DNA of 36,195 nt from Anaerolineales bacterium. GTDB lineage: Bacteria > Chloroflexota > Anaerolineae > Anaerolineales > Villigracilaceae. How positions within the stretch are numbered: position 1 is the stretch's first letter; every line of letters starts with the position of its first letter. Under the pieces are notes generated by a model, which worked only from the letters and a program-made list of their open reading frames with translations, made no database searches and was not told the DNA's origin. Both the position numbers and the translations under genes were made by a program. Location of the stretch: the NCBI GenBank assembly GCA_023382575.1, contig JAHDWC010000017.1, positions 1 through 36,195 of the forward strand, in the 5' to 3' direction. This document shows, piece after piece, positions 1,848 through 13,392 of this stretch.

Positions 1848-3317
1848 ATGCCCATTCACTTCGGTACCGACGGCTGGCGGGCCGTCATCTCGGACAGTTT
1901 CACCTTTGGTAATTTGCGAATGGTCTCACAAGCCATCGCGGACGCTGTCGCTTCGGAACATTGGGACCAGCGAAGCAGCCCCATGGGCAAATCCGAAACC
2001 GTCGACCCAAAGAAGATCGTGATCGGTTTCGACACACGCTTTTTATCAGATCGTTTCGCCGGGGAAGTGGCGCGCGTGCTCGCCGCCAATGGATTTAACG
2101 TCCTGCTTGCCCAATCCGATTCACCCACGCCGGCCATTTCATATGCGGTAAAAAACAACAACGCCATTGCCGGTGTGATGATCACGGCTTCGCACAATGC
2201 GCCGCGGTACAACGGCGTCAAGTTGAAGGGAGCCTTCGGCGGCTCGGCGCTGCCTGAACAATGCCGCCGGGTGGAAGTTTACATCAACGACAATGAGCAA
2301 CAGGCGCGCGGACCTAACTTAATGGATTTCAAAAAGGCGCGCGAAGCGGGCTTGATCCAAAGATTTAATCCCTTGCCGGCGTATTTCGACCACTTGCGCA
2401 AACTCATCAACACCGATGTCATCGCGGAAAATCCGCAGCGCTTCGTGGCAGATGCCATGTACGGGTCAGGGCGAGGCGTGATCAAATCCTTTTTGCAGGG
2501 CACAGGTTGTGAAGTCTACGAGATCCGCGGTGAGATGAATCCCGGTTTCGGCGGCGTGCATCCCGAACCGATCGCCAAATATCTTGGCGCTTTGTCCAGC
2601 GCGGTCAGCTCGGGGTTGGGCAATTTTGGCGTGGTCACAGATGGCGATGCTGACCGCATCGGCGCAATGGACGAACGCGGCAACTTCGTCGACCCGCACA
2701 AGATCATGGCGCTTTCGCTGAAGTATCTGGTCGAAAAACGCGGCATGAGCGGCTCTGTCGTCCGCACGGTTTCGACCACACGCATGATCGACCGCCTCGC
2801 CAAACGTTATGGTATGAAAGTACACGAAACTCCTGTCGGCTTCAATCACATTGCCGACATTATGATGAGCGAAGACGTGTTGATCGGCGGCGAAGAGTCC
2901 GGTGGCATTTCGTTCAAGGGGCACATCCCCGAGGGCGATGGTCCCATCATGGGCTTGCTGTTGGTGGAAATGCTGGCGGCTTCTGGAAAATCGCTCGGCG
3001 AAATGGTGGATGACCTGCTGGCGGATGTCGGTCCTGCCTTTTACGAGCGTGTGGACTTGCGCCTCAGCCGCCCCGTAGCCAAAGCCGAGATGACAGAGTT
3101 TCTCACCCAGAAAGCGCCCGTGGAAATTGGCAGCGAAAAAGTGACCGAAATCAGTCAACGCGATGGTGTGAAATACATCATGTCTGACGATTCGTGGCTG
3201 TTGGTGCGCCCGTCTGGCACGGAGCCGGTTCTGCGAGTCTACGCTGAAGGGCGCACGCAGGATATGGTCAAGGCGCTCATCGGCTACGGGCGGACTGTAG
3301 CAGAGAGCGTGGTCTAG
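1848..3317 (+). CDS. Phosphoglucomutase/phosphomannomutase (alpha-D-phosphohexomutase family)
   Basis: This is a complete 489-residue phosphohexomutase. It interconverts hexose 1- and 6-phosphates through a phosphoserine enzyme. All four family signatures are present: the active-site serine loop TASHN (113-117, Ser115), the metal-binding loop DGDADR (265-270), the sugar-binding loop GGEESGG (347-353) and the phosphate-binding loop RPSGTEP (454-460). An AAAGAGG Shine-Dalgarno lies nine bases before the ATG. Sequence alone does not settle glucose versus mannose preference. Glucose 1-phosphate would feed GlgC at 11685-12932, and mannose 1-phosphate would feed GDP-mannose for a mannosyl solute. 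The gene ends in a strong bidirectional terminator. Confidence 0.93.
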   Translation: MPIHFGTDGWRAVISDSFTFGNLRMVSQAIADAVASEHWDQRSSPMGKSETVDPKKIVIGFDTRFLSDRFAGEVARVLAANGFNVLLAQSDSPTPAISYAVKNNNAIAGVMITASHNAPRYNGVKLKGAFGGSALPEQCRRVEVYINDNEQQARGPNLMDFKKAREAGLIQRFNPLPAYFDHLRKLINTDVIAENPQRFVADAMYGSGRGVIKSFLQGTGCEVYEIRGEMNPGFGGVHPEPIAKYLGALSSAVSSGLGNFGVVTDGDADRIGAMDERGNFVDPHKIMALSLKYLVEKRGMSGSVVRTVSTTRMIDRLAKRYGMKVHETPVGFNHIADIMMSEDVLIGGEESGGISFKGHIPEGDGPIMGLLLVEMLAASGKSLGEMVDDLLADVGPAFYERVDLRLSRPVAKAEMTEFLTQKAPVEIGSEKVTEISQRDGVKYIMSDDSWLLVRPSGTEPVLRVYAEGRTQDMVKALIGYGRTVAESVV

Positions 3318-3381: not shown

Positions 3382-3957
3382 CTATCGCACGGGGGTGGCG
3401 CGCAATCTGCGAGCCAGCAAGATGACGATAATAAACGCAAGCGCCATCACGACCAATCCCGGCACACCGAAGTCATCCACGAAGCCGGTGTTGGGCAACA
3501 AGGTGGAGGTGGGGACAATGGTCAATTGGGCGATGGCCGCTTGAGTCAGCGCCGCGCCGACGGTAGCAGTGGCAGCTGCGGGCGTACCCGCATCCAACGC
3601 GCTGAAACTGGTTGCATTGGGATCGGGCGTTTCAGTGGCGGTGGCAACTGCGACAACTGCGGTAGCAGTCGGCGGTTCGGTGGCGGTCGGCAAAATGGAC
3701 GCTTCAAAAGTGGCGGTCAATGCCTGGTTGATAAAGTCGTTATTGGCGGCGGCTGTCGCAGCGGCCGACGTAGCTTGGGCTTGCTGTGCGGCGCGCGTCT
3801 GCGAACTGAAGAGATAAACGCCCACCAAACAGGCGATGGAGATCAGGATAATTCCGCCCAAAATCGCAGCCGCGATGAGGAATGTGCGGTTATTGTTTGA
3901 CTCCTCGGGAAGCGGGGCATCATCGGGGGTATCGAAATTGTTATCGTCGAAAGACAT
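3382..3957 (-). CDS. Putative cell-wall-anchored protein with LPNTG sorting signal
   Basis: This 191-residue protein has an acidic, Asp/Glu-rich N-terminus (1-22) and a strong membrane helix (about 25-50). An Ala/Thr/Pro-rich region (60-150) follows. The C-terminus has LPNTG at 154-158, a hydrophobic helix (about 164-182) and a basic end ARRLRATPVR. That C-terminal order (LPxTG, helix, positive tail) is the sortase cell-wall sorting signal. An AGGAGAG Shine-Dalgarno precedes the ATG. The gene is 60 bases downstream of the MutL-associated gene and may belong to that operon. The additional N-terminal helix is not a typical cleavable signal peptide, because it follows 24 acidic residues. No sortase is encoded in the window. 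Confidence 0.7.
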   Translation of the reverse strand: MSFDDNNFDTPDDAPLPEESNNNRTFLIAAAILGGIILISIACLVGVYLFSSQTRAAQQAQATSAAATAAANNDFINQALTATFEASILPTATEPPTATAVVAVATATETPDPNATSFSALDAGTPAAATATVGAALTQAAIAQLTIVPTSTLLPNTGFVDDFGVPGLVVMALAFIIVILLARRLRATPVR

Positions 3958-4017
3958 GGAGCACTCTCCTGATTAGTGTATCAACCACAAAATACCTGAG
4001 ATAAGAACTGGGAGATA

Positions 4018-5073
4018 TTATCCCACAACTTCAAGGTTTACGAGCGGAACCACGACGGTCTCGCCATTCTCAAGCTTGACTTCCGCCGCAGGAGCACGCA
4101 ATCCACTGGGAAGGGTGGTCTGTCCCGGCTTGATGGTCAGAATCGAGCCGATCATTCCCATGGCTGGCTGACGGCGCATACGCACCTGCAATCCCGGCGC
4201 GAGAGTTTCCACCTCCCGCGGAGGAGGCGGGTCGGAAGAGATCGGTAAGGGAATGATCACTTCGGGTCGTGCGCCTGTGTAACGATCATAGGCTTCGGCG
4301 TTGAGTGTCACTTCGCGTTTGGCGTTGGTGCTGAGCAATTTATGGGCGGCTGAGTTCATTGGCAGAGCGCCAAACCCATCTGTGACCAGAATGGGATAGC
4401 GCATCTCGCGCGCCTTTGAAAGTAGCGACGGGAAGATGCTGGAGAGGATCAACCCGCGCACGGGCAAGTCCGCGGCAGCTTGCAGGGTTTCAGCATCTTT
4501 GACGATCCCGGCAAGGATGACCGAACCGCGCAGACTCACGTCCAGACGACCAACTGTCAGCACACTCTCAGGCGTCTCAGTGAGATTCACCAACGTCCCC
4601 GTGTCGATGCGCCCATTGCCCCACACGCCTTGTACCAAGCCGCCAGCGGTCTGAATCAACACACCGCGGTTGGGAATGATCTCCTTCACAATGCCGGGAA
4701 TGCCAGCACGTAATTCCATTTTGGTTTCGCCAGCTTCCATCAAGACCTGACCGCCACCCACGGCCACGACACGTCCATCGCGGGGCGCGCGTACCGAGCG
4801 TGGGAAGATGCCTTTACCCACGGCGATTTCCGCGCCAGATGGGATTTGGTCATCCACTTTGCAGCGGATCAAACTGTCTGCCATGTTAGGCGAGACATTC
4901 AACAGGCGGGCAACGTCCAATAAGACATGTTCGCGCGCCCAACGGGTCTCGGCGATCAAATCACTCGGCGTAACCTTTTGGTGAAGGCGGGCATGGACTG
5001 TCCCAGAGATGGGAAGCACTCGCTCGCGGATAATGGAGGTCAAACCGATCACATGTAATACAGGGGCATCCAT
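4018..5073 (-). CDS. Uncharacterised partner protein of the MutL-family gene
   Basis: I do not recognise a named family. The protein is about 351 residues from ATG 5073. The alternative ATG at 5079 forms an ATGA overlap with the upstream stop but lies only three bases after GGAGG, whereas 5073 has the ideal nine-base spacing. The N-terminal 90 residues look helical. A Gly/Val-rich middle (about 90-180, with VAVGGGQVLMEAGE and GIVKEIIPNRGVLIQTAGG) resembles a barrel-sandwich or biotinyl-like fold. Around 200-245 a Rossmann-like alpha/beta stretch contains RGLILSSI and ILVTDGFG. There is no signal peptide or membrane helix, so it is cytosolic. Direct coupling to the MutL-like gene suggests the two act together. 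Confidence 0.6.
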   Translation of the reverse strand: MDAPVLHVIGLTSIIRERVLPISGTVHARLHQKVTPSDLIAETRWAREHVLLDVARLLNVSPNMADSLIRCKVDDQIPSGAEIAVGKGIFPRSVRAPRDGRVVAVGGGQVLMEAGETKMELRAGIPGIVKEIIPNRGVLIQTAGGLVQGVWGNGRIDTGTLVNLTETPESVLTVGRLDVSLRGSVILAGIVKDAETLQAAADLPVRGLILSSIFPSLLSKAREMRYPILVTDGFGALPMNSAAHKLLSTNAKREVTLNAEAYDRYTGARPEVIIPLPISSDPPPPREVETLAPGLQVRMRRQPAMGMIGSILTIKPGQTTLPSGLRAPAAEVKLENGETVVVPLVNLEVVG

Positions 5074-5075
5074 CG

Positions 5076-6833
5076 TCATCCGCCTCCGAGAGTCCAGTTC
5101 CATTTTTTGAGAAGCTCACGCCGACGCACAGCATCTGTCGGCAGATCCAGCGGACGTCCGCGCCCGTCGAAGACAACGCCCAACGCTCCACCACTGACCG
5201 GGATGGTTCCGCCTCGTCCGGGACCAAAGCCAACGTTCGCGCCATGCAGACATTGGATGGTCAACTTTCCGGTTTCGCCGATGGCGAGTGGCAGAGTTTC
5301 GAGGCTGCCATATTTCAATTCGACTTGCGCCTCGACGCCGGTTTCATAAGTCAGTTTTGCACGCAAAATGGACGTGCCATAACGAGCAGAAACAACCGGC
5401 GAAACGACTGTACCCACGCTGAGAAATGCACCAGACTCAAGTACCTGCACTGGCAGAATGTTATTTTGTGAAGCCGCTGCACCGAGCAGTGGAAGCAAAT
5501 TGTTCTGGTCGAGGATGATCGTGGTGATGCCCACAGGTTGGATCGTGTCCAAGAGCAGGAGCAGCCCCTGACCCGGACGCGAAGCGTCATTCAGTGCACT
5601 GCCACCAGCCAAGATCGGCTCGAAGAGCGGAGTCAGACCGGGCTTGATCCCTGCTGCATTCTGCGGAAAATCGCGGCGGGCAGATTGCATCGCAAGGTAG
5701 AGAGCCTGTCGCGCTACAGCTTGTGCCACGGCGAGATCTTCCTTCGTAGCCGAGATCGTGGCGGGATACAACGCCTTTTGGTGTAGATAATCACGCAGCA
5801 CGCCCGTGGAAATATCAAGCGATGACCAGCGCAGGATGTCTTCAAGAGAGGTGTAATTCAACAGACCTGTCAGGTTCTCGCCGATCCCAAATTGCGGAAA
5901 CACCTTCAATACGGATTTGTTTTTGAAACCCGCGGCGATGACCGCGGCAGAAACGCCAAGGTCCACGCTGAGGAGCCCTTTTTGCGAGCTATAGACTTTG
6001 GACAGGAAACGCACCATGCGTCCAGCCGCATACGCCGTCGGCAAAATATGCCCGCCCGACCACAGATCGAGCGCATCCACGCCTTTGATCTGGCGCTTGC
6101 GGATGTTGATAACCATGCGAGCCAGTTCGCGTTCGGCAGGATCGATATCTTCGGTTTCAAGCGATGGGCGGATGTTAGGGCTAAAATGCAGGGAGGTCGC
6201 CAATGACCCAACCAGCGTTTTCACCTCCGCTTCCATCTTTTCGTTGCCTGCAAACAAAACGGTGGGACGTTTCTCTTGCGGCATGAGGAAGCTGGCCAAG
6301 CCGATCGGTTCGAGCAGCTTTTGGATCGAGCGCGATGCACCTCCGTCTGTGCCGCCAGCGATGATGAACAGATCGGGACGGTTGCGCATGATGCTGTCAA
6401 TTTGTTGATCAGGCTTGCGGTGATCGCTCAGCCCGATGGTATCCACGATGCGGGTGTAGCTGGTTTCCGTCAAACGCCGCGCACTATCCAGTGAGACATC
6501 TTTTAGCAGTCCGACCACAACCGTCTTGATGGCAGGACCCGCCGAAAGCGTGACCACGAGCGCATCCACCCCCGACCCGTTGGGTTGACTCGGGATCAGG
6601 AGCGAACGCGACGAATCGAGCAGGGTTCGACCCAATATTCTTTGCAAGGTTTCAATCGCATTGCGCGCACCTTCAGAGACATCTTTGAAGGGAGCTTCGG
6701 CTGTGCTTGGCGCAGTGCCAGATGCCACGAAGCGATATTCGCCTTCGATGACATCGAACAATACAGCGCGCGTATTGGCCGCGCCGACATCTATGGCAAG
6801 CAGGGAATTACCGGTGACCAGTGAAGAAGGCAT
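5076..6833 (-). CDS. MutL-family (GlmL-like) ASKHA protein
   Basis: This 585-residue cytosolic protein has an N-terminal ATP-binding signature of the ASKHA (actin/Hsp70/sugar kinase) fold (LLAIDVGAANTRAVLFD, about 12-28). Further Gly-rich phosphate-contact segments are IIAGGTDGGA (about 155-165) and ILAGGSALND (about 406-415). The arrangement resembles the MutL/GlmL family, known from glutamate mutase operons, where GlmL helps maintain the B12 enzyme. No mutase subunit or B12 protein is nearby, so the role here is probably different. The gene starts five bases after the preceding membrane-protein gene with no clear Shine-Dalgarno, which implies translational coupling. Its end overlaps the next gene's start region. 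Confidence 0.7.
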   Translation of the reverse strand: MPSSLVTGNSLLAIDVGAANTRAVLFDVIEGEYRFVASGTAPSTAEAPFKDVSEGARNAIETLQRILGRTLLDSSRSLLIPSQPNGSGVDALVVTLSAGPAIKTVVVGLLKDVSLDSARRLTETSYTRIVDTIGLSDHRKPDQQIDSIMRNRPDLFIIAGGTDGGASRSIQKLLEPIGLASFLMPQEKRPTVLFAGNEKMEAEVKTLVGSLATSLHFSPNIRPSLETEDIDPAERELARMVINIRKRQIKGVDALDLWSGGHILPTAYAAGRMVRFLSKVYSSQKGLLSVDLGVSAAVIAAGFKNKSVLKVFPQFGIGENLTGLLNYTSLEDILRWSSLDISTGVLRDYLHQKALYPATISATKEDLAVAQAVARQALYLAMQSARRDFPQNAAGIKPGLTPLFEPILAGGSALNDASRPGQGLLLLLDTIQPVGITTIILDQNNLLPLLGAAASQNNILPVQVLESGAFLSVGTVVSPVVSARYGTSILRAKLTYETGVEAQVELKYGSLETLPLAIGETGKLTIQCLHGANVGFGPGRGGTIPVSGGALGVVFDGRGRPLDLPTDAVRRRELLKKWNWTLGGG

Positions 6834-6838
6834 GATTT

Positions 6839-7540
6839 CTAGAATATCCCGATAAGCTTGTTTATGAAATCGATCAATGAGGAGAAGCGTTCAATGAATG
6901 CGGTTAATGCGGCGGCGAAAACCCCGGCAAAGATCGCACCCAAGGTGACTCCGATAAAGATGCGCCCGACCCAGGCAATGATCTCGATCAAACCGAAGCG
7001 ATGCATCGTCCCGTTCGCATTTTGACGCGCCCCAAAGTGGAAGTACGCCAGTGATGTGACCACGCCGAACAAGATGACCGCGCCGTTGCCCATGACTTCC
7101 AAGGCATGGATGTTACGTGCAGCTGCCAGTTGCGGGTCGAAGAAATTGATGGTCGCTTCCATTTGCGGCAGCAAAGTTCCCAGCAGTGCGCCGCCAATGG
7201 TCACCGCTGCGCCTGCCCCAACGAGGAATGCCATCGGGAGGCGGGCGAAGCCAGCCATCCGCGACGATATTTTCGTGAGGATGAGTGCTGCGCCAAGCAA
7301 TGGCAGCAGAATCAGCAATTGGTCGACCAACGTCCCACCAAAAATGGCGGCGATCCCTTTATCCCAAAGCTGTGGCTTGAGCACCTGCCAGACGATCACA
7401 GAGCCGACATATCCCGCCGCCGCACCGACGAAGATGTAAATAGTGATGCGGAAAAGCGGATTGTCCCCGACCAAATAACTGAGGACAAAGATGGTAAACA
7501 GAAAACTCAGCAGTCCGCTGATGATGTCAAGATAGTCCAT
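6839..7540 (-). CDS. Multi-pass membrane protein of the WL-motif/MutL operon
   Basis: A 233-residue hydrophobic protein with about five or six predicted membrane helices (roughly 6-24, 30-52, 65-88, 95-118, 145-168 and 185-212). No enzymatic motif is recognised. GGCGGAG lies just before ATG 7540. The preceding stop codon ends one base before the start (TAA-C-ATG), so it is coupled to the upstream gene. It may be a membrane scaffold or channel-like partner in the same complex; its function is unknown. Confidence 0.65.
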   Translation of the reverse strand: MDYLDIISGLLSFLFTIFVLSYLVGDNPLFRITIYIFVGAAAGYVGSVIVWQVLKPQLWDKGIAAIFGGTLVDQLLILLPLLGAALILTKISSRMAGFARLPMAFLVGAGAAVTIGGALLGTLLPQMEATINFFDPQLAAARNIHALEVMGNGAVILFGVVTSLAYFHFGARQNANGTMHRFGLIEIIAWVGRIFIGVTLGAIFAGVFAAALTAFIERFSSLIDFINKLIGIF

Positions 7541-7541
7541 G

Positions 7542-9014
7542 TTACTCCGCCCCCTTCACGGTACTGCGTTCCCGCAGACCCAGTACAAAATTCCATAAGC
7601 CGCCGCCAAGCAACAGTACAACAGCCAGTAACATGCCAATGCTGTAAGCATCCCAATAGATGCGGGCCGTACCGGGAAGACCTGCATTGTATTGTTCGAA
7701 AAGCGCGCCGCCATATAACCCTGGCACCACGCCACTTACTTGACCGGATTCATAATAAGGTTCGATCATTGGAGCCGCTTGGGCGCTGGAGACGACAATA
7801 AACGGGATTGGCGTCACGCTGCGAATTCCCTGCGTCTGTTCGACCCAAATGCGGGCAGCTTCGGCATTGTCAGTAACGAGGATGATGGCAGCAAATTGAT
7901 TGATAGCTGTGACTCCCTGCAACATTGTGGAAGTCCACGCAGGTTGGGAGTGGATGTCAACTGGTGCGATACGGGTCGGGTCCTGGACAAAAGCGCGAAT
8001 GCCTAACTGTCCGCCAGAGAGATAGCCCAAATTCAAGTACGTGGATCCGCTCAACGATCCAGCCGCGAAGCGTTCTGCCAGCGTGGCCCCTGTCTCATTT
8101 GTGGCGAGAAAAGTCAAACGTGGATTGTTGAGCATGTCAAAGAGTGGCGCAGAGATGGCTTCCATTTCACCTGCACGTGAAGGCTCATAATCGAAGACCA
8201 CCAACAGCGGAGAATTCTCAGGGATGGATTTAACCACCGCCTGCGCTTCACGCACCTGGTTGGGAGCGGCGAACGGCAAGCGGAAGACTTGTGTGCGCAT
8301 CGAAAGCGTGACGAGAGCAACAAGCGTGAATAGAATCGCTAGGAACCAACGCAATCCGCGTGATGCGCCCAGAGATGGGAGCGACTCAATCGGAACCGGT
8401 GAGGCTTCAGCGGCGAGAATTTGCTCCAAAATTTCAGCGTGAGCCATCTGCTCGTCGCTGGTTTGCAGTTTGATGGAATACGATTTCGGCTTGCTCGTCG
8501 GCGTGAATCCCGGCGCAGCGGGCAACACACCCTGCAACCCCGCCAATGCACCGCGAGACTCCAACGTTTGGTCGCTGGAATACAAGGCTTGGGGAATGCC
8601 GCCCGGTTCAACTGGACGCATCGCCTGCACCCAGGTCGGCAAATCGCTCGGAGCGAGCGCATCTTCATTCGTGATGGGCGTAGGCGTCGAAGACGGAGAA
8701 ACATTCGCTGACGATGTTGGCTCGACCGCGTTCGAAAGCCAGTCGGGCATTTCGGCGAACAGGTCACTGCTCTCTGAAGAGAAGTCAGGGGTGAACGCGG
8801 GAGCATTCTCAAAGGGAGAGACCTCTCCTGTTTCAGAGACAGGCTCCTCGGGCTGCGAAGCGGACACATCCGCGGCTTGCTGGAAGTTCTTGATCCAATC
8901 TGGCGTCTCTGCCGCAGAAGGCTCAGGCGGACGAGTCACCTCTTCATTTCGGGCGCTAAAAATGGACGATTCCGGCGCGGCAGCTTTCAACCAATCCGGC
9001 AGGTCCACGATCAT
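7542..9014 (-). CDS. WL-motif protein with two membrane helices (probable downstream half of a frameshifted gene)
   Basis: A 490-residue frame starting MIVDLPDWLK. The first 210 residues are low-complexity and acidic, with four short 'P-D/T-W-L/I/V' motifs (LPDWLKAA, TPDWIKNF, MPDWLSNA, LPTWVQAM). A membrane helix at about 221-238 is followed by an extracytoplasmic domain of about 215 residues. A second helix (about 459-481) and a short basic tail end the protein. The same WL motif is repeated seven times in the upstream frame (9040-9975). The two frames are separated by 25 bases and are in different registers. The +1 frame upstream of this ATG stays open and coding-like back to about 9118. 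The two probably form one protein broken by an indel. Taken alone, a weak AGGA lies just before the ATG. Confidence 0.6.
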   Translation of the reverse strand: MIVDLPDWLKAAAPESSIFSARNEEVTRPPEPSAAETPDWIKNFQQAADVSASQPEEPVSETGEVSPFENAPAFTPDFSSESSDLFAEMPDWLSNAVEPTSSANVSPSSTPTPITNEDALAPSDLPTWVQAMRPVEPGGIPQALYSSDQTLESRGALAGLQGVLPAAPGFTPTSKPKSYSIKLQTSDEQMAHAEILEQILAAEASPVPIESLPSLGASRGLRWFLAILFTLVALVTLSMRTQVFRLPFAAPNQVREAQAVVKSIPENSPLLVVFDYEPSRAGEMEAISAPLFDMLNNPRLTFLATNETGATLAERFAAGSLSGSTYLNLGYLSGGQLGIRAFVQDPTRIAPVDIHSQPAWTSTMLQGVTAINQFAAIILVTDNAEAARIWVEQTQGIRSVTPIPFIVVSSAQAAPMIEPYYESGQVSGVVPGLYGGALFEQYNAGLPGTARIYWDAYSIGMLLAVVLLLGGGLWNFVLGLRERSTVKGAE

Positions 9015-9039
9015 GTCATCCTGCGCGGGTTGTTCCGTC

Positions 9040-9975
9040 TCATTCGAATAATGGATGGTATCTTCGCTGGCGAGGAGTTTCAGGTTCTGCAGGCGTGCTG
9101 GCAGGCTCCTGTCGCAGCCACTTGGGAGTCGTATCCTGCTTGACGTTTTCCAATTCAGAGGGAGGCTTCAGCCATTCTGGCGTTTCAAGCGGGGGAAGCG
9201 GCTGCGCCTCAGACTCAGCCGGAGTGGATTCAAACAAGGAAGAGAAATCGCCGCTGGAAGTTTGCGCGTCGGCGTTGCCCAAACTGCTCAGCCAATCTGG
9301 CGCATCGAGCGGCAACTCCGCAGATTCGCTGGGCGTCTCTGAAACAGCCGGCTTGGATTCTGCATCCATCGCCATCTGACGCAACCAATCGGGGGTATCT
9401 TCGGCAGGCAATTCGATTGGAGCGGGTTGTTGCGGCTCCGCAGGGATGGACTGCCAACTGGTCAGTTCATCCTGTTCCGGCTGAGATTCGGGGGATTGCA
9501 GTCCTGCCAACCAGGAGGGTAATCCCTCCGAGCTTTCTTCGGGCTCATCCTGCGGGAAGTCGTTCTTGCCACCCATCTCCACCCAACGCGCGCCAGTGGT
9601 TTCGGTTGGCTCTGCTTTGGGCTTAGGCTGGGCGCCTGTGATGTTGGCCAGCCAATCTGGTACTTCTTCTTCATCGTCGTCCCCGCTTTGAGATTGAAGT
9701 CCCGCTAACAGGTCGCCGGAGGCGGGTTTATTTTTGTCCGATTGAGGAAGAGGTTCTTCCTCGCTGTAAGAGTCATTTTGACGCGCAGCGTCACGCGCCT
9801 CACGCAGCCACTGCGGCAGAATGGGTTCCAATTCGGCGGTTTGTTTTCGAGTGGGAGCCTGCCCCGGTTGAATGGAATTGGCATCGTTTGTAAGCGCAGA
9901 TTGACAGACGCTACAGAATTGCTGTCCTTGCGGGTTTTCCGATCCGCAGATGGGGCACTTGATGATGTCAGCCAT
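9040..9975 (-). CDS. Zinc-ribbon protein with repeated WL motifs (probable upstream half of a frameshifted gene)
   Basis: This 311-residue frame opens with a zinc ribbon: Cys7, Cys10, Cys21 and Cys24 (CPICGSEN, then FCSVC). The rest is acidic, Pro/Glu/Ser-rich and apparently disordered, and carries seven short motifs of the form x-P-x-W-L (LPQWLREA, VPDWLANI, LPSWLAGL, TPDWLRQM, APDWLSSL, TPEWLKPP, TPKWLRQE). The spacing is irregular, so these look like linear binding motifs rather than a folded repeat. The start overlaps the preceding stop (TAATG). The last residues before the stop (about 9042-9118) use codons with lower third-position GC than the +1 frame over the same bases, which runs on towards the next gene. 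See the frameshift finding. Confidence 0.65.
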   Translation of the reverse strand: MADIIKCPICGSENPQGQQFCSVCQSALTNDANSIQPGQAPTRKQTAELEPILPQWLREARDAARQNDSYSEEEPLPQSDKNKPASGDLLAGLQSQSGDDDEEEVPDWLANITGAQPKPKAEPTETTGARWVEMGGKNDFPQDEPEESSEGLPSWLAGLQSPESQPEQDELTSWQSIPAEPQQPAPIELPAEDTPDWLRQMAMDAESKPAVSETPSESAELPLDAPDWLSSLGNADAQTSSGDFSSLFESTPAESEAQPLPPLETPEWLKPPSELENVKQDTTPKWLRQEPASTPAEPETPRQRRYHPLFE

Positions 9976-10589
9976 TATTTACCCCCATACGGACGGTCCA
10001 TCCCAAAGAGCACGCGCAACCCCGTGACAAGTGTGCCCAAGGCCACGCCAATCAAGATTCCGCGTGCGCCGCCCAAGGCAAAGATTTGTGTGAACCATGG
10101 GCGAATGAGTGTGCCGAAAACGGGCACATCACCAAACGGTAAAGTGGCTGAGCCGAGGAAAAGCAACGCCGCCGTAAGGATGAAAACGATGCCCATCACA
10201 TCAGCGCGTTTGCGCAGCATGCGGATGGCGGCATAGAGCAGTGTCACGGTCAACAACCCCATCAGCATGGCTTCAACTGGAAGGATGATTCCATCCAGAA
10301 TAACTTTTCGCATCAAGAGATGGTCAGGGCGCAAAATGACACCTGCAAAGAAGGTCAGTACCATCACCAACACAAGGATGGCGCTGTAGATGCTGCCCTT
10401 TTCACTGCGGCGGACTTTGTCCATGTGGACGATCATCAAATTGACCAGACCGACAAGTGCAGCAACACCGGTCAGGATAACCGCCCAATTTAACAGAATA
10501 GTTTGGATTATGGCCGCCTGCGGCAGGAAATAACCCAGCAGGATCAGAATTCCAAAAGCAATCGCAATCACAGCAGTCAAGACTCGCAT
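9975..10589 (-). CDS. Six-helix membrane protein, uncharacterised
   Basis: A 204-residue protein with about six membrane helices (roughly 3-22, 30-53, 66-86, 97-120, 133-152, 165-190) and a short basic cytosolic loop (MDKVRRSEKG) after the second. No recognised motif. Its ATG overlaps the preceding stop by one base (TGATG), and its own stop overlaps the zinc-ribbon gene's ATG (TAATG). It is therefore translated in register with its neighbours and is probably part of the same membrane complex. Confidence 0.65.
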   Translation of the reverse strand: MRVLTAVIAIAFGILILLGYFLPQAAIIQTILLNWAVILTGVAALVGLVNLMIVHMDKVRRSEKGSIYSAILVLVMVLTFFAGVILRPDHLLMRKVILDGIILPVEAMLMGLLTVTLLYAAIRMLRKRADVMGIVFILTAALLFLGSATLPFGDVPVFGTLIRPWFTQIFALGGARGILIGVALGTLVTGLRVLFGMDRPYGGK

Positions 10590-11320
10590 CAGAACGCCCC
10601 CACAAGTTTAAGTCCTGCACCAACGGACAGGGCCGCAATGACCAACCAGCGCAGAATATCCTGCACGGTCAGGCTGGCGGTATGAGCAGGGTCACCGCCA
10701 AGATATGCACCCGCGGCAAAAAGTTCCTCGCCAATCAACGCATCCTGCGAACTGGCATAGAGAATCGCCTGCCCGGTCAGGTTATCGCTGGCACCGATCA
10801 AGGTGACATGGTCGCGGTCGGATGTATCTGCAAGCAAACCCGCTTCGGCACCAAAGTGCCCAAGCAGGATATTCGTCGAAACATTTTCGTTGTTGGCAAT
10901 GTGCATCGCCCCAGCGGCATAACTGAAGGGAGTCAACCCGGTGACACGCCCAGTGGTGGGGACATATAACTCGTCCACATTGGCGGCTTTGTATCCAGCT
11001 TGGATCGTATCCTGAGTCAACAGACCCAGTGTCGGGTCTCCGGCAGATGCGACCGATGGCATGTCACTAACAGAGGTACGCTCGGCAATGATCCGCAATG
11101 TTGCCAAAGCAGCCAGCGCAGAGCCTCCACGCGCATCAAGCAGACTGCCATGCCCAAGCGAGATGTGCAGGCGTCGTCCGTCTTCGATGCTCAATCCCAC
11201 CGCGCGGATCAGGCGTGTGAACGCAGGAATATCGCGCAGGCGGGCGGGAGATCGACGCTTCCAAAATGTGATGACGACCAATAGCACGGCGGCAAGAATG
11301 AGGATGGATAAAGCGATCAT
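10589..11320 (-). CDS. Membrane protein with large cytosolic/peripheral domain, uncharacterised
   Basis: A 243-residue protein with one N-terminal helix (about 3-18), a basic stop-transfer (FWKRRSPARLRD) and a roughly 190-residue alpha/beta domain containing HISLGHGSLLDARGG and GHFGAEAGLL. A second helix (about 220-240) lies at the C-terminus. The Gly/Ala-rich, Asp/Ser-containing loops could be a ligand-binding or enzyme fold, but no family is securely recognised (possibly the family Pfam calls DUF6754; low confidence). The ATG overlaps the preceding stop by four bases (ATGA) and the stop overlaps the next ATG (TGATG). Confidence 0.6.
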   Translation of the reverse strand: MIALSILILAAVLLVVITFWKRRSPARLRDIPAFTRLIRAVGLSIEDGRRLHISLGHGSLLDARGGSALAALATLRIIAERTSVSDMPSVASAGDPTLGLLTQDTIQAGYKAANVDELYVPTTGRVTGLTPFSYAAGAMHIANNENVSTNILLGHFGAEAGLLADTSDRDHVTLIGASDNLTGQAILYASSQDALIGEELFAAGAYLGGDPAHTASLTVQDILRWLVIAALSVGAGLKLVGAF

Positions 11321-11562
11321 AAACCTGCTCTTTGCTGGGTCAGGAAGGATGCAAATGCGCGCGCCTCAGAATCGTCCTCGAGCATTCCCGCTACTGCGGT
11401 AAGTTGCTCGCTCTTGATGAAGCCGCCGCTAAAATAAATCGCCTGCGCTCCAAGCAGGGCGAAAGGACTTCCTGCTTCAAGAAACGAGGCGACCAGATCG
11501 TGAAGTTGATATCGACGCAAGGACTCAGCCCAGCGATGCCAGAATTCGCGTGATGGCTTCAT
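11317..11562 (-). CDS. Small cytosolic protein heading the WL-motif/MutL operon
   Basis: An 81-residue, mostly helical protein with Arg/Glu-rich and Leu/Ala-rich turns (FWHRWAESLRRYQLHDLVAS, then SEARAFASFLTQQ). No homologue is recognised. It is the first gene of the run that continues to about 3382. It has almost no 5' untranslated region: TATACT lies ten bases before the ATG. It overlaps the next gene by four bases (ATGA). Confidence 0.55.
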   Translation of the reverse strand: MKPSREFWHRWAESLRRYQLHDLVASFLEAGSPFALLGAQAIYFSGGFIKSEQLTAVAGMLEDDSEARAFASFLTQQRAGL

Positions 11563-11684: not shown

Positions 11685-12932
11685 TTACGGGGCGATGACC
11701 GTGCCCGGTTGGACCTCAGCATCCTTGGGGATGATGACGATGCCATCGCGCACGTACCAGTTTTGATTATCGATCTCTGTGTTGCGCGGGAACGGACGGA
11801 TGGTGACGTTCTCTCCGATGCGCGCATTCTTGTCGAGGATCGCGCCTTCGATATAGCAATTCGTCCCAATACCAATCGGAAGCCCACCCCATTCGCGCTC
11901 GTAATAATCCGAACCCATCACGATACTGTCTCGGATGACGCATCCCGCCGCAATCTGACTGCGAATACCAATGATGGAATGAACGATCTCTGAACGTAAA
12001 ATGCGGCTGCCTTCGGCGATCAACACTTCCCGCATCTGACAATCCTCCACGATGGAAGCCGGCAAATAACGCGTATCGGTATAGATGGGAAGTTTCGCAT
12101 CATAAAAATCAAACGGCGAATCCGACTTGGTCAACATGAGATTGGTCTCATAGAACGAACGGATGGTTCCAATGTCCTGCCAGTACCCTTCGAAGTCAAA
12201 GCCATAGACCGCATGTGACTTGATCGCCTGCGGAATGATGTCACTGCCAAAATCGTCATAGTCGGGATAATTCACCAGATAATCCACGAGCAGCTTCGTG
12301 TTAAACATATAAATGCCCATCGAGCCGAGGAACGGTCGCGTCGGGTCTTTACGGCTGACGAATTGATTTTGGATGGCAGGGTCCTTGGGCTTTTCGATGA
12401 AATCAGAGATCTTGCCGTCCGCTTCGCGCTTCAGGATTCCGAAGCGGCTGGCTTCATCTCTCGCAACGGGCTGCACAGCGACAGTAATATCTGCCCTATT
12501 TTGCCAGTGATATTCCGCCATCGCCTTGTAATCCATCCGATAGAGATGATCGCCTGCAAGGATGAGCACATACTTGGCACCTGTGGCTTGAATTTCCAAC
12601 AACTGCTTGCGGACAGCGTCTGCAGTGCCCTGATACCAGTCAGCGCTCTCGATGGTCTGTTCCGCCGCCCAAATTTGCACCCAGCCCTGGTGGAACGAGT
12701 CAAAGTTATAGGTCCGGGTGATGTGGCGATGCAATGAGACCGAGTTGAACTGGGTCAGGACTGCGATTCGGAAAATCTCCGAGTTGATGCAATTGCTAAT
12801 TGGGATGTCGATGAGGCGGTATTTTCCTGCAATCGGCACGGCAGGTTTGGAGCGCATTTGAGTCAGCGGATACAGGCGCGCCCCGCGTCCCCCTCCTAAA
12901 ATGACTGCCAGGACTTCGTTGAAAGACGGCAT
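11685..12932 (-). CDS. glgC: Glucose-1-phosphate adenylyltransferase (ADP-glucose pyrophosphorylase)
   Basis: A complete 415-residue enzyme that makes ADP-glucose from ATP and glucose 1-phosphate for glycogen synthesis. The N-terminal nucleotidyltransferase domain begins VLAVILGGGRGARLYPLT, with the typical SKPAVPIAGKYRLIDIPISN following. QGTADAVR and the sugar-binding FIEKPKDP are present. The C-terminal third is a left-handed beta-helix-like region with regular I/V-x-x-G repeats. A strong AGGAGG Shine-Dalgarno precedes ATG 12932. It stands alone here, without glgA or glgB, and has its own terminator. The nearby phosphohexomutase (1848-3317) could supply glucose 1-phosphate. Confidence 0.95.
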   Translation of the reverse strand: MPSFNEVLAVILGGGRGARLYPLTQMRSKPAVPIAGKYRLIDIPISNCINSEIFRIAVLTQFNSVSLHRHITRTYNFDSFHQGWVQIWAAEQTIESADWYQGTADAVRKQLLEIQATGAKYVLILAGDHLYRMDYKAMAEYHWQNRADITVAVQPVARDEASRFGILKREADGKISDFIEKPKDPAIQNQFVSRKDPTRPFLGSMGIYMFNTKLLVDYLVNYPDYDDFGSDIIPQAIKSHAVYGFDFEGYWQDIGTIRSFYETNLMLTKSDSPFDFYDAKLPIYTDTRYLPASIVEDCQMREVLIAEGSRILRSEIVHSIIGIRSQIAAGCVIRDSIVMGSDYYEREWGGLPIGIGTNCYIEGAILDKNARIGENVTIRPFPRNTEIDNQNWYVRDGIVIIPKDAEVQPGTVIAP

Positions 12933-13257: not shown

Positions 13258-13309
13258 TGCTTAAGAAGAGATGAGTACCAGCTAAGGTATAATTTGCGAG
13301 CAAAGCGAG

Positions 13310-13392
13310 TGCCGAAGGAGGGAATCGAACCCTCATTCCCGTAGGGAACACGATTTTGAGTCGTGCGCGTCTGCCTATTCCGCCACTTCGGC
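13310..13392 (-). tRNA. tRNA-Leu (anticodon CAA)
   Basis: The minus strand folds into a class II tRNA of 83 bases without encoded CCA. The acceptor stem is GCCGAAG/CTTCGGC with discriminator A. The anticodon stem CACGA/TCGTG encloses loop CTCAAAA with anticodon CAA, reading UUG. A long variable arm (TTCCC TAC GGGAA) identifies leucine or serine, and the anticodon fixes leucine. The T-arm has the usual GGTTCGATTCC pattern. It has a strong promoter upstream and a terminator downstream, so it is probably transcribed alone. Confidence 0.95.

Follow-up and report, generated by a model that had tools for sequence, protein, structure and literature searches.

The window analysed here is a stretch of 36,195 nucleotides from an Anaerolineales bacterium (contig JAHDWC010000017.1), in which nine open reading frames (ORFs), all running leftwards on the reverse strand, span positions 3382-11562 and form an operon that looks like a real and widespread cell-envelope machine. 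The gene order is SMALL, DUF6754, MEM3, zinc-ribbon/PxWL/EXT (two ORFs), MEM4, MUTL, PARTNER, and LPNTG. According to the ORF list of the window, most of these genes overlap or are separated by a few bases, and wider spacing occurs only before the LPNTG gene and at the split zinc-ribbon/PxWL gene. SMALL and DUF6754 overlap by four bases (11317-11320), and one-base overlaps are found at 10589 (DUF6754/MEM3) and 9975 (MEM3/zinc-ribbon ORF); a single base separates EXT (7542-9014) from MEM4 (6839-7540), five bases separate MEM4 from MUTL (5076-6833), and MUTL overlaps PARTNER (4018-5103) by 28 bases if the first ATG of PARTNER is used. These coordinates and tight junctions bear out an earlier note on this DNA, which had described leftward genes with coupled junctions. 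Of the "other membrane proteins" in that note, one is now assigned to DUF6754 (PF20539), and the first ORF, SMALL, is added as a conserved component. MutL and DUF6754 are the only Pfam families matched above threshold among the operon proteins, and five of the seven core proteins match no Pfam or NCBIfam family above threshold.

The DUF6754 subunit (10589-11320, 243 amino acids (aa)) is a clear member of PF20539 (95.4 bits, E 4e-27; gathering score 27 bits), a family annotated only as a domain of unknown function. In the AlphaFold2 models, both this subunit and the EXT part (mean confidence, pLDDT, 93.8 and 92.7, respectively) consist of a helix, a Rossmann-like domain, and a second helix. The two domains are predicted to face opposite sides of the membrane: the DUF6754 domain is placed inside by a mean of 4.3 lysine and arginine residues after helix 1 versus 0.9 before it, and the EXT domain outside by 1.2 after versus 2.9 before. 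This topology agrees with a sub-threshold fn3 match at the N-terminal end of the WOR-3 DUF6754 proteins. Conserved sites of DUF6754 include E46, E159, G197-E198-E199, and D221, with E46, G56, G154, E198, E199, A202, and D221 being invariant; in the model, most of the invariant residues directly follow the ends of strands, a place at which ligands are bound in Rossmann-like folds, and may mark a putative ligand site. MEM3 (9975-10589, 204 aa) and MEM4 (6839-7540, 233 aa) are six-helix membrane proteins with conserved polar positions that belong to no Pfam family; by sequence, MEM3 looks N-in and MEM4 N-out.

A fold relative was sought for DUF6754 and EXT with Foldseek and VIA-align, which gave only generic Rossmann matches with tied scores, and the missing close structural match is not taken as proof of a new fold. 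Among PDB sequences, DUF6754, EXT, and MUTL had no convincing relative, and three weak matches were taken as chance. Profile-profile comparison detected no sequence relation between DUF6754 and EXT (probability 1.6%); from their predicted shape, one might guess that they are ancient paralogues.

The zinc-ribbon/PxWL/EXT gene is split into two ORFs in the window. Its first half (9040-9975) carries a CxxC...CxxC zinc ribbon (9889-9963; sub-threshold matches to DUF7577, DZR, and zinc-ribbon models) and seven P-x-W-[L/V/I] motifs, and its second half, EXT (7542-9014), carries four more motifs and the predicted extracytoplasmic Rossmann-like domain, which is flanked by two helices (8298-8354 and 7575-7631). 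Exactly eleven motifs thus lie in the region 8628-9816, as had been claimed, compared with a mean of 0.25 and a maximum of 6 in 5000 shuffles of the same residues. Over 48 relatives the consensus is [DE]-[VLI]-P-[DAS]-W-L-[RQK], 72% of the tryptophans in cytosolic parts fall inside the motif, and the number of copies ranges from 0 to 63 per protein. In all close relatives, one gene of about 815-900 aa covers the zinc ribbon, the motif stretch, and both helices, so the earlier description of a single protein with these parts holds for the family, but not for the window, where the first ORF closes at 9040 and homology to the relatives is continued in another frame (frameshift region 9040-9090, located by comparison with relatives). 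The continuation of the second half in the other frame, ASEDT..PAQDD..DLPDWLKAAAPES, matches relatives. The split at 9040-9090 may be a real mutation or an assembly error, the congeners having no near-identical DNA there that would tell the two apart (best long match about 68%).

MUTL (5076-6833, 585 aa) matches the Pfam family MutL (PF13941) with 187.3 bits (E 5.8e-55; gathering score 27 bits), which upholds its assignment as a MutL-type ASKHA protein; no other Pfam family, PilM and FtsA included, matches it up to E 1. Its MutL-like core covers residues 12-466 and is followed by a C-terminal extension of about 120 residues (about 5079-5435) with an invariant D-x-R-G-R-P. The nucleotide-site glycines do not vary, whereas the phosphate-2 segment departs from the family consensus (VDLGVSAAV in the window, VDxGGATT in most relatives); ATP binding by MUTL is plausible. 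PARTNER (4018-5103, 361 aa) is a cytosolic protein encoded after MUTL; its matches and those of its relatives, to barrel-sandwich (RnfC_N, biotin/lipoyl) and KOW models, all stay below threshold, and a comparison of MUTL with PARTNER found no relation between them. In one Chloroflexota genome without the DUF6754 genes, two thymidylate-kinase-like genes follow PARTNER (L246:11792-13245). SMALL (11317-11562, 81 aa) is soluble, and a profile built from Chloroflexota sequences only finds its homologue directly before MUTL in other phyla.

Within Chloroflexota, DUF6754 was found in 76 of 300 genomes with a completeness of at least 90%. The order DUF6754, MEM3, EXT, MEM4, MUTL is kept in most of the fetched loci, with PARTNER next in most and a median intergenic gap of 1 base; exceptions are largely contig ends. 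The Chloroflexota carry one copy of the module, and their DUF6754 proteins make up one side of a branch that has full support in the tree (100/99). In the loci of three carriers, which we take to be Chloroflexus aurantiacus, Roseiflexus RS-1, and Herpetosiphon, MUTL is longer, and PARTNER and LPNTG were not found.

The neighbourhood is not confined to one strain, nor to this phylum. In a scan of named genomes, DUF6754 was present in Bacillota, Cloacimonadota, WOR-3/Stahlbacteria, Eisenbacteria, Zixibacteria, Planctomycetes, and Mcinerneyibacterium, as well as in the archaeal groups Bathyarchaeota, Culexarchaeota, Methanomethylicota, and a Thermococci bin. The four-gene module DUF6754-MEM3-EXT-MEM4 occurs in Bacillota, WOR-3, Zixibacteria, Cloacimonadota, Planctomycetes, and several archaeal groups: 53 stand-alone modules outside Chloroflexota keep the order, in addition to MUTL-followed, incomplete, or tandem ones, with a median gap of 6 bases. 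EXT is about 275 aa long in these phyla and has neither zinc ribbon nor PxWL motifs. MUTL and PARTNER directly follow the module in Bathyarchaeota, Cloacimonadota, Symbiobacterium, and an Eubacteriales bin. Since the four-gene module stands alone and SMALL lies directly before MUTL in other phyla, the system consists of two blocks, DUF6754-MEM3-EXT-MEM4 and SMALL-MUTL-PARTNER, which are joined into one operon in Chloroflexota. Among 33 non-Chloroflexota genomes selected for having DUF6754 (1 to 27 copies each), 32 also encode MutL (1 to 8 copies), the exception being a 0.7 Mb bin; in 14 control genomes DUF6754 was absent and MutL was matched weakly in two. The idea that MUTL and DUF6754 strictly require each other was rejected, as MUTL occurs without DUF6754 too. 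The highest number, 27 copies of DUF6754, was seen in one 3.8 Mb Bacillota bin (L109 genome, G434). The module is also present two or three times per locus in L121, L127, L165, and L116, with three in a row in the Zixibacteria locus L165, which suggests hetero-oligomers or substrate variants.

The long form of MUTL is found in Chloroflexota without DUF6754 as well, usually with PARTNER adjoining. In 12 of 19 loci from such genomes, a gene for a PxWL chain lies directly upstream of MUTL (spacing -4 to +97 bases); these stand-alone chains have 2 to 15 motifs, carry a zinc ribbon in all but one case, and are mostly soluble, with three ending in one helix. The chain thus occurs by itself next to MUTL in the absence of the module and as a fusion with EXT in its presence, a domain-fusion pattern which points to MUTL or PARTNER as its binding partner and to EXT as its membrane anchor. 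The WL tail therefore probably tethers MUTL/PARTNER, and the reading of the WL motifs as docking sites, put forward in the earlier note, gains support at the level of sequence and gene neighbourhood. In a Herpetosiphon-like genome, MUTL itself ends in a tail of PxWL motifs with a basic end (L057:11098-13275). At least 14 copies of the same P-x-W-L motif are also present in a TPR protein of the same genome as the window (L260:17-3130 / L241; G000 contig C133), which is unrelated to the operon proteins and adjoins a thymidine-phosphorylase-like gene, so PxWL may serve for docking more generally in Chloroflexota.

The last gene of the operon encodes an LPNTG surface protein (3382-3957, 191 aa), an accessory component mostly of Anaerolineae, in many of which it sits at the operon end; among the fetched loci it was not found in Chloroflexales or outside Chloroflexota. 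The protein has an N-terminal helix and ends in LPNTG, a helix, and an RRLR tail, and sortase genes are present in the same genome, so that it carries all features of a sortase substrate (LPxTG, helix, basic tail, sortase in the genome), as had been suspected. Upstream of the operon lie GlgC (11685-12932, NCBIfam scan) and, farther upstream, a tRNA-Leu (caa) at 13309-13392. Downstream, on the other strand, lie a phosphoglucomutase-like gene, named from its sequence (1848-3317), and a gene for a DUF389 membrane protein (432-1760, Pfam scan) with a threonine/proline-rich tail, which adjoins the phosphoglucomutase-like gene in several relatives too.

From the gene order, the co-occurrence, the topology trend, the predicted folds, the motif repeats, and the genomic link between WL chain and MUTL, we infer complex formation, docking, ATP use, and transport. 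The operon products would form one membrane complex, in which DUF6754 (cytosolic domain) and EXT (extracytoplasmic domain) would flank MEM3 and MEM4; these two, in opposite orientations, would together provide a path across the membrane. SMALL, MUTL, and PARTNER would be the cytosolic ATPase unit that energises or switches the complex, and in Chloroflexota the zinc-ribbon/PxWL chain fused to EXT would act as a flexible cytosolic tether that recruits MUTL/PARTNER via its repeats. The cargo might be a solute or an envelope building block moved across the membrane, and different paralogues in Bacillota and archaea may handle different substrates. We give this reading, in which an ASKHA ATPase energises or switches a complex for transport or translocation, a probability of about one in three. 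The existence of a complex is well supported; transport itself is a guess, preferred because there are two six-helix subunits with conserved polar positions and domains on both faces, and also because of the many paralogues per Bacillota or archaeal genome and some contexts with regulators and enzymes, such as RpiR-SIS/module/creatininase (L208) and IclR/module/kinase (L206).

Several points weigh against this reading. The single module copy in Chloroflexota suits a fixed task rather than many substrates, and no solute-binding or transporter fold was recognised in the structure searches with DUF6754 and EXT. The long MUTL-PARTNER pair in Chloroflexota without DUF6754 has a role beyond the module, and the range of 0 to 63 copies, counted in sequences, means that the PxWL motifs are not strictly required. 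When module neighbours were compared with 62 random F. carboniphilus genes, amidohydrolase was found in 3 cases versus 2 of 62, and M20 in 3 versus none among the 25 control families listed, which is no clear enrichment. Enzymes beside the modules were accordingly reduced as evidence for solute uptake, F. carboniphilus being rich in such enzymes generally.

One alternative is that MUTL, SMALL, and PARTNER act as a chaperone or reactivase that remodels or reloads a membrane client enzyme made of DUF6754, EXT, MEM3, and MEM4, by analogy with EutA-like and GlmL-like ASKHA proteins, which are thought to serve B12 enzymes. The membership of MUTL in the MutL/GlmL family would fit, as would a relative with a weak match to EutA, the occurrence of MUTL-PARTNER without the module, and the invariant acidic residues of DUF6754 next to strand ends, the usual ligand position in Rossmann-like folds. 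However, the operon contains no B12 enzyme, MUTL reaches 88.7 bits against a cut-off of 475 for GlmL, and the client, an assembly with about 16 helices in the membrane, would not resemble the clients of known reactivases; we regard this alternative as unlikely.

A similarly unlikely alternative is that the complex serves to export envelope material or put it in place, the LPNTG protein being its product or anchor. The restricted distribution of the LPNTG gene described above speaks against such a role in envelope assembly, although its place at the operon end in many Anaerolineae and the sortases in the genome would suit it. FtsX-type or ABC-transporter genes adjoin MUTL/PARTNER or the module in L117, L120, and L213, which would also agree with envelope assembly, but the link is limited to few loci. 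A general association of MUTL with ABC/FtsX was rejected, since such genes appear in scattered loci only and other neighbours encode PIN/KH, PhoU, PALP, and peptidase C26.

It is also conceivable, with a low probability, that the Rossmann-like domains bind ligands on both faces and that MUTL is the nucleotide-dependent switch of a sensing or regulatory complex. The RCK domains of KtrA (Z 9.9, root-mean-square deviation 2.7 over 114 residues) and MthK (Z 8.5, 3.0 over 120) are among the best structural matches, but their Z values are tied with those of unrelated Rossmann-like proteins, such as GmhA, transhydrogenase domain III, and CODH epsilon, so that the match is to a common fold. That the genes are chance or housekeeping neighbours without joint function, as the ordinary flanking GlgC and phosphoglucomutase-like genes, which stay nearby in some relatives, might suggest, is very unlikely given the same order and short median gaps inside and outside Chloroflexota, in two domains of life.

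A gene set that stays in order in lineages as distant as Chloroflexota and archaea, and in which one subunit reaches 27 copies in a genome, should have an important role. Returning to the transport reading, we propose, tentatively and with considerable doubt, a new class of bacterial and archaeal machine in which an ASKHA ATPase drives or gates a four-subunit transport module that has a Rossmann-like domain on either face, and to which Chloroflexota have added a tether of many PxWL motifs that would gather the ATPase at the membrane. For the family of MUTL, only an accessory role is known; should an ASKHA ATPase indeed power or gate movement in the membrane, this would be a new way of energising a membrane complex. 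A clear binding hypothesis comes from the PxWL tether, which is a chain of its own in some lineages and part of a membrane subunit in others.

Finally, the operon was compared with known systems. No match to a known secretion or pilus system was found in searches of Pfam, NCBIfam, PDB sequences, and PADLOC, the last giving no anti-phage defence match at E up to 0.01 for the nine proteins. Literature searches, covering few subscription journals, found no paper that names DUF6754/PF20539 or describes the system, and nothing relevant on PF13941, GlmL with ATPase, or PDWL; the statement that no described system has this set therefore stands for the databases and literature searched. In ECF- and TonB-type systems, one energiser is common to several specific membrane parts, and the up to 27 DUF6754 versus 1-8 MutL copies per genome suggest similar sharing, whereas no operon protein has a Pfam match to ABC_tran, as expected of an ABC or ECF transporter, or to TonB/ExbBD. 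PilM- and FtsA-type proteins are membrane-linked ASKHA proteins, and MUTL likewise is an ASKHA-fold protein beside membrane partners; it differs from them in its gene partners, and no operon protein has a Pfam PilM or FtsA match. The LPNTG protein resembles sortase substrates in its motif, helix, basic tail, and genomic sortases, and is here merely an accessory gene of the operon. GlmL is set apart by the score of MUTL against its equivalog model (NF040745), far below the curated cut-off, so that MUTL is not a member, and by the absence of a mutase nearby, no glutamate or ornithine mutase gene being found among the operon proteins in Pfam and NCBIfam scans. With the MutL/GlmL family as a whole (PF13941; methylaspartate mutase accessory protein), MUTL shares its core and the nucleotide-site glycines, to which it adds the extension with D-x-R-G-R-P and a pairing with PARTNER, SMALL, and membrane proteins.

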